A stretch of DNA of 64,000 nt. Source: Natronolimnohabitans sp. A-GB9. Its GTDB lineage: Archaea > Halobacteriota > Halobacteria > Halobacteriales > Natrialbaceae. Within the stretch, counting starts at the first letter, position 1, and each line of letters opens with the position of its first letter. Below, piece after piece: positions 563 through 59,018 of this stretch. The position numbers were made by a program, and so were the translations under genes. The notes below the pieces were generated by a model that was not told where the DNA came from, did not search any database, and saw nothing but the letters and a program-made list of their open reading frames with translations. The stretch is taken from positions 62,001 through 126,000 of the forward strand of contig NZ_JAVDDV010000001.1 of assembly GCF_030848565.1 (NCBI RefSeq), given 5' to 3'.

Positions 563-1237
563 ATGGCTCAGGCGACACTCACGATCACGCTACCCGAACA
601 GGTCTGGATTCAACAGCTCTCGACGGCGTATCCGTCGGCGACCTTTCGGGTTCTGGCGGCTGTCCCCGACGCGGAGCGGGGCTTCGCACTCGTTCGGATT
701 ACCGGATCCGAGGTAGCCGACGTAATCGAGGACATGCACGAGCATCCACAGCTTACCGAACTCTCGCTGGCTCAGCGGACCGACAACGAGGCGACGGTCC
801 ACTTCGAGACGACGGCGCCGCTGCTGTTGTTCTCCTCACAGGAATCCGGAATGCCGATCGAACTCCCCGTCGAAATCGTCGACGGTGAGGCGACCGTCGA
901 GGTCACCGGATCACGCGATCGACTCGCCGGACTGGCCGAACAACTCGAGCGCTTTGGCTTCCAGTATCGGATCGAACACGTCCGCGATCGGCTCCACGAG
1001 AGCCAACTGCTCTCGGAGCGCCAGCTCGAGGTCGTCGTCACCGCCGTCGAGGAAGGCTACTACGACACGCCCCGGCGCTGTTCGCTGACGGAGCTCGCCG
1101 ACCGACTCGATATCGCGAAATCGACCTGCAGCGAGACGCTCCACCGCGCCGAGGAAGCGATCGTCAAACGGTTCGTCGACGATCTCCCTGGCGTCGACAA
1201 CGACGAGTCACTCGAAGACCAACTCGTACGTAGCTGA
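563..1237 (+). CDS. Bat-like HTH transcriptional regulator
   Basis: A 224-residue haloarchaeal regulator of the bacterio-opsin-activator type. The N-terminal about 150 residues form the usual sensor-like region with no cofactor motif. The C-terminal HTH_10 domain begins at LSERQLEVVVTAVEEGYYD and continues through SLTELADRLDIAKSTCSETL. The ATG at 563 is preferred over an in-frame upstream one at 530 because the family begins close to the MAQATLTI segment. It lies upstream of the Fe-S/NrfD redox module in the same direction. Relatives such as DmsR sit beside respiratory reductase operons, so control of the module is a reasonable inference. The TGA stop is also the first three bases of an intergenic repeat. 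Confidence 0.85.
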   Translation: MAQATLTITLPEQVWIQQLSTAYPSATFRVLAAVPDAERGFALVRITGSEVADVIEDMHEHPQLTELSLAQRTDNEATVHFETTAPLLLFSSQESGMPIELPVEIVDGEATVEVTGSRDRLAGLAEQLERFGFQYRIEHVRDRLHESQLLSERQLEVVVTAVEEGYYDTPRRCSLTELADRLDIAKSTCSETLHRAEEAIVKRFVDDLPGVDNDESLEDQLVRS

Positions 1238-1305
1238 TACAGTCAGACACGCATTCGCCGGATGGGAACGGCGAACGCTCATACGGACTGCTGTCCGGCA
1301 GTATA
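1235..1305. repeat. Intergenic palindromic element (TGATAC...GGCAGTATA type)
   Basis: Begins with TGATACAGTC, whose TGA is the stop of the preceding gene, and ends with ACTGCTGTCCGGCAGTATA. Between them GCATTCGCC pairs imperfectly with GGCGAACGC. One of many dispersed copies in this window. It is followed at 1311-1329 by a perfect 8-bp hairpin with stem CGATCTCG and loop ATA. Confidence 0.7.
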
Positions 1306-1310
1306 AGCAC

Positions 1311-1693
1311 CGATCTCGATACGAGATCGAACGTGTCGTCTCATCCGGGTCTTGCGCTGACCCGCCTCTAAACGGCTTCGTTCAGCACCGATTGGTGCCC
1401 GATCGAGAAACTTCTGTGGAGTTGTTAGCCGTCTTTCGACGCCACACTGTCGGATATCTGTACTGATATACGATCCGACCGGCCGGCCAGCACAGGTGGA
1501 AACTATTATAGTGAGAAATAAGTGGGCGAACGTGTTCGTGTCCATTCTCACGTCGTGGAAATCGGGTCTATACTTCAACGTCATCTAGTTGTGAGTCGGG
1601 TGTAGAGGATCCATATATGGCTAAATTCACGTGCGTGATGGCACGTAATCATTGTGCACAGCACGGATTCTCGTCCGGAGGTGTTCGCTCGAC
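1311..1693 (+). promoter_or_regulatory. Leader/promoter region of the Fe-S/NrfD operon
   Basis: The gap upstream of the Fe-S gene holds no credible gene. It contains a perfect 10-bp palindrome CCATATATGG at 1611-1620, a possible operator or TATA region, and GGAGG at 1677-1681, a Shine-Dalgarno sequence spaced correctly for the ATG at 1694. Whether the upstream Bat-like protein binds here is inference. Confidence 0.45.
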
Positions 1694-3400
1694 ATGAGCG
1701 CGGACGATGAATCGTTCCACCCGCTCGGAAAGGAGTGGGAGGGCGAACTCGAGGAGATGCTCGACGATACCGAGTACGATACGGACCTCGGTATGGAGAT
1801 GGCCCAGGACGCGATGCGGGTCACGAAAGGCGAGCTCTCCGAAGCCGAGTTCCACGAAAAGTACCACGACGACGTCATGGACGAGTTCGGCGTCGACGAC
1901 CGTCCGACCGAGGAAGCCTACGAGGCTGCCCAGGAGGAGGCCAAGGGCACCGTCGGTCGGATGCTCTCGGCGTTCGACGGTGACGGCGAGGAGACCCGCC
2001 GCGAGACGATGAAGAAGATGGGCGTCGGCGCTGCCGCCGTCGGCCTCGGTGCCTGGGGCGCTACCGACGACGGCCCCGAAGCCGATTTCGCGGCTGCCGA
2101 CGACGCCGCCGACGGTGGCGACGACGATGGCATCCAGTGGGGGATGACGATCGACCTCGAGCGCTGTGACGGCTGTCTCTCCTGTGTCGACGCCTGTTCT
2201 GAGGAGAACCAGCTCGATCAGGGTGTCAACTGGATGTACGTCCTCCAGTTCGCCGACGAGGACAACCAGGAGCCTGGCCACCATCCTGCCGGTGGCTTCG
2301 AGAACATGCTCGTCCGGCCGTGTCAGCACTGTACCGACGCACCCTGTGAGAAGGTCTGTCCGACGACGGCCCGACACACCCGCGACCAAGACGGGCTCGT
2401 GTTGACCGACTACGACGTCTGTATCGGCTGTCGGTACTGTCAGGTCGCCTGTCCGTACGGCGTCAACTACTTCCAGTGGAACGAGCCGGACGTGGAATAC
2501 GAGGACATTCCGGAGAACGCATCGGAACACCCGGCTGCTCACGTTCCCGCGGACGCAGACCCCGAAGACGTCACCTACTCGGAGTACGATGATCTCGACG
2601 ACGACCGATGGGTCGACGCCCGTGCGCCGCGTGGCGTGATGAGCAAGTGTACGATGTGTCCGACCCACCAGGACGGCAGCCAGGGTGAAGAGCACATCGG
2701 TCACACGGCCTGTGAGGACGCCTGTCCGCCAGGTGCGATCCAGTTCGGGAACGTCAACGACGAACTCAGCGACCCACAGCGGTACGCCGAGAACCCGAGT
2801 CGCGGCCGCAGTCTCGAGCGACTCGCGATTCCGGATCCCGAGGAACTCGAGGACGCCCTCGAGGGCGAAGACGACGACCTCGAGTCCGTGCTCGACGCCG
2901 TCGACTTCCAGGCCATGGACGGCGATATCACGACCGACGCGGAAGGTCTCGGCATCCTGCTCGCACTCGAGATCACCGGCGGCGAGCAGATGGGCAACGG
3001 ACCCGAGGTAGAGAACCACAGCGACTTCGTCCACTACGAACAGGAGGTTCTCGACGTGCTCGAGGTCCTCGAGGACCACGGACTCGATCTCGATAGTCAG
3101 GAGGTCCTCGCCGAACTCGACCTCGCCGATCCGCTCGAGGAAGACGAAGACGAAGACGACGACTTCGAGCCGGACGAAGACGACGCGCAGTTCCTGCTCC
3201 AGCGGTTCGCAGGTGTGCAGACCTCGAGCTTCAAGCTGCTCGAAGAGTACGGAACGAACCCGAACATCACGTACATCGGCAGCGAACCTGGTCCAAACGC
3301 CGAACAGATCGAGGGCCCAGTTCAGTACGACTCCGTTGACTTGACGGACAATCGTAAGGAGGTCCTCGACGACGATACCGTCACTGGGGGGATGTACTAA
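1694..3400 (+). CDS. 4Fe-4S ferredoxin-type subunit of a membrane redox complex (DmsB/NrfC/PsrB-like)
   Basis: A 568-residue electron-transfer protein with four [4Fe-4S] cysteine sets: 158/161/164/168, 210/213/218/222, 243/246/249/253 and 319/322/340/344. That arrangement is typical of DmsB/NrfC/PsrB subunits. Residues 1-100 are an acidic helical region. A Tat-like signal (TRRETMKKMG then an Ala/Gly hydrophobic stretch) lies internally at about 101-123. Residues 390-568 are an acidic C-terminal extension not usual in the family. The ATG at 1694 is chosen because GGAGG precedes it. TAATG couples it to the NrfD gene, its probable membrane anchor. No molybdopterin subunit is encoded nearby, so the substrate is unknown. 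Confidence 0.85.
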   Translation: MSADDESFHPLGKEWEGELEEMLDDTEYDTDLGMEMAQDAMRVTKGELSEAEFHEKYHDDVMDEFGVDDRPTEEAYEAAQEEAKGTVGRMLSAFDGDGEETRRETMKKMGVGAAAVGLGAWGATDDGPEADFAAADDAADGGDDDGIQWGMTIDLERCDGCLSCVDACSEENQLDQGVNWMYVLQFADEDNQEPGHHPAGGFENMLVRPCQHCTDAPCEKVCPTTARHTRDQDGLVLTDYDVCIGCRYCQVACPYGVNYFQWNEPDVEYEDIPENASEHPAAHVPADADPEDVTYSEYDDLDDDRWVDARAPRGVMSKCTMCPTHQDGSQGEEHIGHTACEDACPPGAIQFGNVNDELSDPQRYAENPSRGRSLERLAIPDPEELEDALEGEDDDLESVLDAVDFQAMDGDITTDAEGLGILLALEITGGEQMGNGPEVENHSDFVHYEQEVLDVLEVLEDHGLDLDSQEVLAELDLADPLEEDEDEDDDFEPDEDDAQFLLQRFAGVQTSSFKLLEEYGTNPNITYIGSEPGPNAEQIEGPVQYDSVDLTDNRKEVLDDDTVTGGMY

Positions 3401-25518: not shown

Positions 25519-25683
25519 TCACGTCGTTCTTTCGGTCAGTTCCGACGTTCCGATGGTAGCCGCTGAATGTCACTGTACACTCGATCGCGCGACGGCTGTA
25601 CGATCGGTGTGGAAATCGGTTCAGTAGCTACTATCGCTCTCGAGTCGGACTCCGTCGTCTTCGTTTCGCCGACGTTGAATGAA

Positions 25684-51414: not shown

Positions 51415-52116
51415 ATGTCCGATTCAGAACTGAACCGTCGTAAGTTCGTCGCCGCCGCAGGTACCGCAAGTGCACTCGTACTCGCTGGCTGTGCCGACGA
51501 GGGCAACGAAGACGACCCAGAAGACGACGAAGAGCCGGCCGCAGACGACGACATGGACGATGACATGGACGACGACGAAGAAATGGACGACGACGATGAT
51601 ACGTACACGCTGACGGTCATCGTCGAGGACGAAGACGAAGAGCCAGTCGAGGGTGCGACCGTCGAACTCGAGGAAGCGGACGACGAGGAGGACGACGACG
51701 AAGACGACGAGGTGATGGACGACGACGAAGACGACGAGGAGGACGATGACGATGACGACGAGGTGATGGACGACGACGAAGACGACGAGGACGATGACGA
51801 TGACGACGAGATGATGGACGACGAAGACGACGAGGACGATGACGATGACGACGAGATGATGGACGACGAAGACGACGAGGAGGACTTCCCGCGAGAAGAG
51901 GAAACCGACGAAGACGGCGAAGTCGAGTTCGACGACCTCGAGGACGGCGAGTACACCGTCATGGCCGAATACGAGGGCGACGAGGCCGAGGAGGACGTCG
52001 AAATCGACGGCGACGACGAGGAAGTCACGCTGACGCTGGACGACGATGAGGAAGACGACGATGACGATGAGATGATGGATGACGACGAAGACGACGATAC
52101 CGACGACGCGCTCTAA
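51415..52116 (+). CDS. Tat lipoprotein with acidic-repeat-interrupted carboxypeptidase-regulatory-like domain
   Basis: 233 residues. The Tat signal NRRKFVAAAGT and lipobox VLAGC anchor it at Cys25. A carboxypeptidase-regulatory-like domain begins YTLTVIVEDEDEEPVEGATVELEEAD and resumes DGEVEFDDLEDGEYTVMAEY. Between the two halves lie about 75 residues of near-identical Asp/Glu units ending VMD or MMD. A similar acidic unit closes the protein. The predicted net charge is extreme. The repeats are GAC/GAA/GAT codon blocks prone to slippage. Function unknown. Confidence 0.8.
   Translation: MSDSELNRRKFVAAAGTASALVLAGCADEGNEDDPEDDEEPAADDDMDDDMDDDEEMDDDDDTYTLTVIVEDEDEEPVEGATVELEEADDEEDDDEDDEVMDDDEDDEEDDDDDDEVMDDDEDDEDDDDDDEMMDDEDDEDDDDDDEMMDDEDDEEDFPREEETDEDGEVEFDDLEDGEYTVMAEYEGDEAEEDVEIDGDDEEVTLTLDDDEEDDDDDEMMDDDEDDDTDDAL
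51676..51894 (+). repeat. Tandem acidic codon repeat inside the lipoprotein gene
   Basis: Successive units of about 45-51 bp, each GACGACGAAGACGACGAGGA(C) followed by GATGACGATGACGACGAG(G/A)TGATG. Four units are clear, the last cut by DFPREEE. Units three and four are almost identical in DNA, so recent duplication. Confidence 0.8.
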
Positions 52117-53101: not shown

Positions 53102-53377
53102 ATGTACGACTTGACAGGATTTCAGCGAGACCTACTGTACGTCATCGCTGGCGAGGAGGAACCCCACGGACTGGCTATCAAAGAGGAACTCGAGGAGTAC
53201 TACGAAAAGGAGATCCACCACGGCCGGCTCTACCCCAACCTCGACACCCTCGTCGACAAGGGACTCGTCGAGAAGGGACGGCGTGACCGGCGTACGAACT
53301 TCTATACGCTGACGCGTCGCGGCCGGCGCGAACTCGAGGCGCGCCGTGAGTGGGAAGCGCAGTACGTCGACCTGTAG
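53102..53377 (+). CDS. PadR-family winged-helix regulator
   Basis: 91 residues, MYDLTGFQRDLLYVIAGEEEPHGLAIKEELEEYYEKEIHHGRLYPNLDTLVDKGLVEKGRRDRRTNFYTLTRRGRREL: a short PadR winged helix with no large C-terminal dimerisation domain. These bind small ligands and repress nearby genes. TATTAAAATTCG near 53064 is the likely TATA box. Its TAG stop is followed in the same frame by the hydrophobic codons of the broken membrane/zinc-ribbon gene, so both may once have been one transcript. Confidence 0.85.
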   Translation: MYDLTGFQRDLLYVIAGEEEPHGLAIKEELEEYYEKEIHHGRLYPNLDTLVDKGLVEKGRRDRRTNFYTLTRRGRRELEARREWEAQYVDL

Positions 53378-53434
53378 GGCGTTGTACGGTCGCGAACGAT
53401 CACCGCGCTCGTTGGGTTACTTCTCGGCGTCGCC

Positions 53435-53738
53435 GTGAGTATCGCCGCCTGGGTGTTCCTCGAGACGGTACTGCTGTTCTTGTTTCTCCCGTTCGTTCCA
53501 TTTCTCTTCGGCTGGGGCGGGTCGGAGCGGACAGACGAGATGTCTCGAGCGAGTCGCGTCAAACGGTGTCCGGACTGTTCGTTCCAAACGACGGAGTCGG
53601 CGTTCGACTATAGTAACAACTGAAACGATTCACACACCGATCGCACAGCCGTCGTGCGATCGGGTGTGCATTGACTTTCAGTGGCTACTATACTGTCCGC
53701 GGGACGGTCGCCGACTGCAAGAGAAGCGAGTCCAGTGA
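53435..53738 (+). pseudogene. Membrane/zinc-ribbon protein gene interrupted by an 80-bp element
   Basis: The left part encodes a hydrophobic segment (AAWVFLETVLLFLFLPFVPFLFGW), a polar stretch and KRCPDCSFQTTESAFDY, the first half of a zinc ribbon. At 53609 the frame enters the inserted element and stops at TGA 53621. After the element, bases 53693-53738 resume with the sense CPRDGRRLQEKRVQ then TGA. Removing 53611-53690 and one TA gives FDYCPRDG in a single open frame. The hydrophobic frame also extends upstream to the PadR stop without a recognised start; GTG 53435 is the first. Confidence 0.85.
53611..53690. mobile_element. 80-bp MITE-like element, TA target duplication (copy 1)
   Basis: Starts TAGTAACAACTGAAACG and ends GACTTTCAGTGGCTACTA, an imperfect inverted repeat pairing nearly end to end, with CCGATCGCAC/GTGCGATCGG at the centre. 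TA flanks both sides (53609-53610 and 53691-53692). It interrupts a zinc-ribbon gene whose frame is restored by removing it with one TA. It encodes no protein and would need a transposase in trans. TA duplication is typical of the IS630/Tc1-mariner group (inference). Confidence 0.85.
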
Positions 53739-53798: not shown

Positions 53799-55091
53799 GT
53801 GAACGAGGTTACGCTGCAGATCGCCGATGCGCCGCTGGACGAGACCGTCGTCCGGATCGCGCTGGCCGGTGCACTCGGGATGTTTCTCGGCCTCGAGCGC
53901 GAGTGGTCACAGAAGTCGGCGGGGATCCGGACGTTCTCGCTGATCAGCCTCCTCGGAGCCGTCTTTACGTTGCTGGTCTTCGAGACCGAGATCGGCGAAG
54001 CGCTTCTCGTTCTCGGTGGGTTGCTCGTGATCGTCCAGGGTGTGTTGCTGGCGATTCAGGGACTGCTAAGCGACGACGGAGCGGGCCTCTCGCTGACGAC
54101 CTCGGTCTCGATGCTCGTCGCCTACGGCGTCGGCACGCTGGTCGCCGCCGGGTTCATCATCGAGGGTGTCACCGTCGCCGTCCTCTCGTCGCTGTTGCTC
54201 GTCCTCAAGCGGGAACTCCATGAGTTCGCCTGGGGACTGACCCACGAGGAAATGCGTTCGACGACCGAGTTCGCCATCCTCGCGTTCGTCATCTATCCGC
54301 TGTTGCCGCCCGAGGTGGCCCTCGAGTTCGGCGGGCTGGTGATCCCGCTCGAGCCCCAGGTCATCTGGCTGATGGTCGTTGCCGTCGCTGGGATCGGGAT
54401 CGCCAACTACGCCATCGTCTCGACCTACGGCGGTCGAGGGATCGCCGTCACCGGCTTCTTCGGCGGGCTGGCCTCCTCGACGGCCGTCGTCGGGACGATG
54501 CTCGATCACGTCCGCCAGCGGCCCGAGGCGGCCTCCTACGCCGTCGCTGCGATCTTGCTCGCCAACGCGGCGATGGCCGCCCGTAACCTCGCCATCGCCG
54601 TCGGTTTCACGATGGGTGGCGGGACGGCGCTGCTCCTCGAAGCGATCGTCCCTCTCGGTGCGGTCATTCTGACCGCGTTCGCCGTCGCCGCCTGGACCGC
54701 CGACTGGCGCGAATCCGGACCGATCGAACTCGAGAGTCCGTTCTCGATGAAAAACGCCCTCGCGTTCGGGGCCGTCTTCCTCGTCGTCCTCGTCTTCGGT
54801 TCGCTGGCCGAGAGCTGGTTCGGGACGCTTGGCTTCTACGCGACCGCCGTCGCCAGCGGCTTCGTCTCGAGTGCCGGAGCGACGACGTCGGCCGTCGTCC
54901 TCTACCGTGGCGGCCAACTCGGGCCGGCCGAGGCGACGATCGCGATCCTGCTGGCGACGGTCTCGAGTATCGTCGTCAAGACCGTGCTCGCGGCGACGTC
55001 GTCGAACAGCCGGTTTCGAAATCAGGTCGCCGTCTACAGCGGCCTGCTTCTGGTCGGCGGTGCACTGGCGACCGTCGCGATCGTGATCTAG
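53799..55091 (+). CDS. MgtC/SapB family membrane protein with DUF4010
   Basis: 430 residues. The N-terminal MgtC/SapB domain has IALAGALGMFLGLEREW, then GIRTFSLISLLGAVFTLL. The C-terminal half is DUF4010 with repeated membrane helices and GGLASSTAVVGTMLDHVR / SGFVSSAGATTSAVV motifs. About 11 helices. The start codon is GTG at 53799. MgtC relatives modulate magnesium or membrane ATPase function. The role in this organism is unproven. Confidence 0.88.
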   Translation: MNEVTLQIADAPLDETVVRIALAGALGMFLGLEREWSQKSAGIRTFSLISLLGAVFTLLVFETEIGEALLVLGGLLVIVQGVLLAIQGLLSDDGAGLSLTTSVSMLVAYGVGTLVAAGFIIEGVTVAVLSSLLLVLKRELHEFAWGLTHEEMRSTTEFAILAFVIYPLLPPEVALEFGGLVIPLEPQVIWLMVVAVAGIGIANYAIVSTYGGRGIAVTGFFGGLASSTAVVGTMLDHVRQRPEAASYAVAAILLANAAMAARNLAIAVGFTMGGGTALLLEAIVPLGAVILTAFAVAAWTADWRESGPIELESPFSMKNALAFGAVFLVVLVFGSLAESWFGTLGFYATAVASGFVSSAGATTSAVVLYRGGQLGPAEATIAILLATVSSIVVKTVLAATSSNSRFRNQVAVYSGLLLVGGALATVAIVI

Positions 55092-58938: not shown

Positions 58939-59018
58939 TAGTAACAACTGCAACGGTTTACACACTGATCGCCGATCCGTCTGGCGATCAGGTGTGCAAT
59001 GACTTGCAGTGGCTCCTA
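58939..59018. mobile_element. 80-bp MITE-like element (copy 2)
   Basis: Same length and ends as copy 1 (TAGTAACAACTGCAACGG ... GACTTGCAGTGGCTCCTA), with paired changes keeping the stem: TGAAA/TTTCA in copy 1 becomes TGCAA/TTGCA here, and CCGATCG/CGATCGG becomes CTGATCG/CGATCAG. Flanks are GA and TA, so no intact TA duplication. It lies 4 bp past the stop of the DEAD-box helicase gene. Confidence 0.82.

Follow-up and report, generated by a model that had tools for sequence, protein, structure and literature searches.

The interrupted zinc-ribbon gene

The window, by which we mean the whole stretch of 64,000 nucleotides analysed here, carries a gene whose small product combines a zinc ribbon (CPDC ... 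CPRDG) with a hydrophobic segment; the gene is located between a PadR-family regulator gene and a gene for an MgtC/DUF4010 membrane protein (Table 1). Compared with Pfam, the product gave only a sub-threshold match to Zn_ribbon_15. The gene is split by an 80-bp element that has TA directly on either side, with the junctions TTCGACTA/TAGTAACAAC and GTGGCTACTA/TACTGTCC; positions 53601-53700 of the window read GCGTTCGACTA TAGTAACAACTG...CAGTGGCTACTA TACTGTCCGCG. A preliminary description of this DNA, made from the sequence alone, had placed the element at 53611-53690 and expected that its removal together with one TA would restore the open frame to a stop at 53738. The coordinates proved exact, and the restored frame runs via FDYCPRDGRRLQEKRVQ to a stop at 53736-53738. 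Owing to long inverted repeats, a single long hairpin spans the whole element, with fold z-scores of -7.2 as DNA and -8.3 as RNA, by which a chance palindrome was ruled out. The element contains no transposase gene, in agreement with its earlier characterization as a tiny, non-coding inverted-repeat element with exact ends.

An in-frame TGA supplied by the element ends the product at FDYSNN, which would remove the second zinc knuckle from the protein. The inspected orthologues start with a GTG that is located 18 codons upstream of position 53435 and is replaced by GTT in the window (53381), a change that is separate from the insertion. Because the start used by the relatives is lost and the GTG at 53435 is merely the next usable one, the 62-codon ORF predicted from that position is doubtful. 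The lost GTG start and the in-frame TGA suggest that the zinc-ribbon gene was probably dispensable, unless it began to decay only after the insertion. Elsewhere in the window, an ORF at 51415-52116 encodes a lipoprotein-like protein with long Asp/Glu runs (DDDDEMMDDEDD repeats).

Empty sites, dispersed copies and target choice

Orthologous loci were obtained by using the 799 bp around the site to search 119 genomes, the own genome and relatives. The order PadR, zinc ribbon, MgtC/DUF4010 is kept in 7/7 syntenic relatives, in which the zinc-ribbon gene is whole, has no insert and includes the CPRDG knuckle, the proteins reading FEYCPRDGRRL, YEYCPRDGRRL or similar at the junction. In the two closest relatives the site is GTACTGTCCGCG, with TA present once, the empty sites being GTTCGAGTACTGTCCGCGGGACGG in L074, from another genus of the family, and GTACGAGTACTGTCCGCGAGACGG in L075, from the same genus. 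The filled site in the window is GACTA[80 bp]TACTGTCCGCGGGACGG and would be GTTCGACTACTGTCCGCGGGACGG without the element, and the DNA added amounts to 82 bp, with TA as the duplication. The TA-TA flanks had been read as a target-site duplication in the preliminary description, which predicted that close relatives would carry the gene without interruption and TA only once; alignment with these relatives found exactly this. A 4-bp TATA duplication around a 76-bp element is ruled out at this site, as TA is single in the empty sites. One pattern match that might have represented the same insertion in another species, Halobiforma nitratireducens, was a different, apparently non-coding site.

The same loci bear on whether the insertion is old, with the short protein ending SAFDYSNN as the ancestral functional form. 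Since the relatives' GTG start is also lost in the window, the gene may not have been needed, whether before the element arrived or afterwards, which would be compatible with such an age. However, an ancestral short gene ending SAFDYSNN, named beforehand as the contrary evidence to look for, was found in none of the examined relatives, and the seven syntenic orthologues are uninterrupted. The detached 3' part is still without stops or frameshifts and keeps CPRDGRRL, and the element has an identical counterpart elsewhere in the genome. An old insertion is thus exceedingly improbable.

In the own genome, 45 BLAST matches to the element were found on many contigs, and the end pattern TAGTARCNACTGNA had 53 exact occurrences, compared with 0 forward and 1 reverse for the reversed control pattern; the copy statistics for this genome were drawn from retrieved loci. 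Nearly all full copies measure 80 bp, with variants of ~57, 103 and 150 bp (the largest being ~150 bp), and typically combine one A-type end (TAGTAAC) with one G-type end (TAGTAGC). The window copy is identical at 80/80 positions to an inverted copy on contig 8 (G000:C8:51830-51909), and among the 15 full-length copies compared, eight copies of the sister subfamily CTGCAA are mutually identical. Because of this identical partner and the eight identical sister-subfamily copies, the element has moved recently, as had been proposed. In this GC-rich genome, long stretches free of stops occur throughout, which makes a tally of ORFs interrupted by copies uninformative.

Some copies were observed to abut end to end with just TATA at the junction, where two independent insertions, each duplicating TA, should leave TATATA. 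Such pairs lie at L070 2121/2122, L071 2307/2308 and L072 1987/1988 (C56:63620, C67:63306 and C34:39486 of the own genome), and elsewhere at G026:C1:2002029 and G044:C2:325295. The abutting partners differ in sequence, so they are no simple tandem dimers.

Among 16 clean copies in the own genome, 14 are flanked by TA on both sides, and C-TA-G is the insertion site in 9 of the 14 (binomial 1.6e-14). Among the copies of relatives, C-TA-G sites account for 11/18 (binomial 4e-17). As background, CTAG makes up 17 of the 1341 TA contexts in the window (1.3%). CTAG is therefore strongly preferred as the insertion target.

Several features of MITEs were found, namely terminal inverted repeats, short length, the lack of a transposase gene, a target-site duplication and dispersed copies, together with insertion at TA and duplication of TA, a feature of IS630/Tc1-mariner derivatives. 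The 80 bp are very probably a non-autonomous DNA transposon (MITE) with TA duplication; we infer its transposition from the sequence. That the repeat would be a regulatory or structural RNA or a DNA palindrome (REP-like or attenuator-like) rather than a transposon agrees with the single strong hairpin fold, but is scarcely credible given the TA duplication, the empty orthologous sites, the position within a reading frame, the dispersed identical copies and the CTAG preference.

Table 1 Features of the interrupted locus and other MITE copies in the window
Feature	Position	Strand	Remarks
Older, degenerate MITE copy	25554..25633	-	84% identical; left end TGGTA; no TA pair left
PadR-family regulator gene, upstream syntenic neighbour	53102..53377	+	Pfam PF03551; 96-100% identical protein in seven relatives
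Zinc-ribbon gene, 5' part	53381..53610	+	Hydrophobic N-terminal part, then CPDC
Left TA of target-site duplication	53609..53610	.	TA single in orthologues L074, L075
MITE copy, 80 bp	53611..53690	+	Left A-type end TAGTAACAAC, right G-type end TAGTAGCCAC
Right TA of target-site duplication	53691..53692	.	TA single in orthologues L074, L075
Zinc-ribbon gene, 3' part cut off by the element	53693..53738	+	Second zinc knuckle CPRDG and stop; orthologues L074, L075, L077, L078, L081-L083
MgtC/DUF4010 membrane protein gene, downstream syntenic neighbour	53799..55091	+	Pfam PF02308 and PF13194; 84-91% identical in seven relatives
MITE copy, CTGCAA subfamily	58939..59018	+	84% identical; right end mutated to TCCTA; left flank GA, not TA

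Matches to the MITE family were found in 57/119 haloarchaeal genomes (the own genome included), nearly all from the same family of organisms. Matches were also found in 51 plasmid records, including those of Natrinema, Natronorubrum, Natrialba magadii, Haloarcula hispanica and Halomicrobium mukohataei, and a search of phage records gave no match.

Candidate transposases

The TA duplication and the likeness of the ends suggest cut-and-paste transposition by a DDE transposase of the IS630/Tc1-mariner type acting in trans. Such an enzyme would recognise the TAGTA[A/G]C... ends, cut the MITE out and join it to a TA, and repair of the stagger would duplicate the TA. The purified transposase of ISY100, a member of the IS630 family, directs insertion almost exclusively to TA, which is duplicated in the process (PMC2170065). 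The link to Tc1/IS630 made in the preliminary description holds as far as the duplicated TA, the choice of CTAG and the terminal TAGTA are concerned, but no transposase-bearing element with the full TAGTARCMACTG ends was found in the genomes searched.

The IS630-type transposase domain PF13358 is present in 52/119 genomes and three times in the own genome. The best-scoring IS630-type group consists of elements of 1055 bp that have two overlapping frames and a DDE_3 domain and are represented in Natrialba magadii by ISNma7, annotated by RefSeq on pNMAG02 as 'IS630-like element ISNma7 family transposase'. The consensus ends of this group are TAGTAACCGTTAGAA (left) and TAGTAGGCGTTAGAA (right); TAGTA begins all ends, and CTA precedes 26/32. 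The group occurs in the same genome as the MITE and, like it, duplicates TA, prefers CTAG and has TAGTA at its outer ends; part of the group also pairs an A-end with a G-end as the MITE does, since base 6 is A in 9/17 left ends and G in 15/15 right ends. It differs from the MITE in its length of 1055 bp with a transposase and in the subterminal sequence, which is RTTAGAA as compared with ACTGMAA. Between like ends, the first 16 bases agree at just 10-11 positions and the inner end sequence differs, so that the MITE does not have the subterminal and internal sequence expected of an internal-deletion derivative of the ISNma7 group.

The own genome has one ISNma7-type copy with both ends (C56:47647-48705; L021 ~935-1989, minus strand), in which an A-rich run at the frame overlap suggests programmed frameshifting. 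On the Natrialba magadii plasmid pNMAG02, an ISNma7-type element was observed inserted into a MITE copy at TA (L103 in G026:C3, 1365-2501). Overlap between the ISNma7 group and MITE-rich genomes is only patchy. G015 and G021 have several ISNma7-type copies and few or weak MITE matches, G015 having three full copies and one weak match, and ten MITE-bearing genomes (G001, G005, G009, G036, G054, G057, G025, G046, G067 and G105) have no ISNma7-type end or PF13358 match. Judged from these sequence comparisons, the ISNma7 group is the nearest autonomous group found and the best candidate for the mover of the MITE, and the chances that it is the present-day partner appear evenly balanced. The partner transposase is only likely, rather than certain, to be IS630-like, because no element of the ISNma7 type could be detected in several genomes rich in the MITE.

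The MITE may also be moved by another transposase that recognises TAGTARCMACTGMAA, perhaps IS630-like, perhaps plasmid-borne or since lost, with the ends resembling ISNma7 on the cleavage and target side only. Although we lean slightly against it, this would account for MITE-bearing genomes with neither ISNma7-type ends nor a DDE_3 match, some of which contain apparently clonal copies, such as six equal-scoring matches in G057, and for the difference from ISNma7 at end bases 8-16, the part expected to be bound by the transposase. Against it, an element combining exact MITE ends with a transposase was found neither in the 119 relatives nor in 391 genomes of the order, and a second filter found none in 33 mostly MITE-rich genomes. 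This absence is no proof, because the filter patterns would miss some ends and the assemblies are incomplete. It is conceivable, if on balance doubtful, that this very successful haloarchaeal MITE family, with target choice and outer ends as in the ISNma7 group but multiplying in genomes devoid of that group, is being amplified by a different enzyme or through cross-mobilisation by transient visitors.

Several other candidates were rejected. An apparent cargo version in G057:C5, in which a HAD-hydrolase ORF lies between two ends that face each other at a distance of 879 bp, has as its right part a plain MITE (bases 810-879 match MITEs everywhere), and its left end TAGTAGCTACTGCA is in no repeated element. 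An 880-bp pair of ends in L219 consists of two unrelated pieces. The other IS630 groups of the relatives have the ends ATAGTGATG, ATACTCA/ATACTGA, ATAGTGCGG, CTAGTACCG or ATATATTCA, none of which fits the MITE.

Relation to known repeats and significance

The element resembles Stowaway-like (eukaryotic IS630/Tc1-mariner-type) and prokaryotic MITEs in being short and non-coding, with terminal inverted repeats, TA duplication and many copies, and for IS630/Tc1-mariner-type MITEs, as here, mobilisation in trans is inferred. Unlike these, it is only 80 bp long and nearly all hairpin, with a CTAG preference, an archaeal host and an autonomous partner that is only a candidate. In Haloquadratum walsbyi, transposase-free repeats are known as MITEs and SMRs, and the SMRs are about 80-110 bp long, do not duplicate their target and resemble no transposon at their ends; some of the MITEs are also without a working transposase (PMC3119063). 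The 80-bp element is, like these, a transposase-free haloarchaeal repeat with terminal inverted repeats. In contrast to the SMRs, it duplicates TA and has IS630-like outer ends, and the duplication sets it apart from them. No earlier description of the 80-bp MITE family was found in the literature searched, and this abundant haloarchaeal family is apparently undescribed, although the kind of element is familiar.

As a biological phenomenon, the insertion of a MITE is ordinary. For an abundant haloarchaeal MITE family, the exact ends, the target site and the duplication are now fixed, and annotators are cautioned that, in these genomes, a short ORF with its end close to TATAGTARC may represent an interrupted gene. 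The insertion also raises the question of the donor or partner, which is testable in laboratory haloarchaea.
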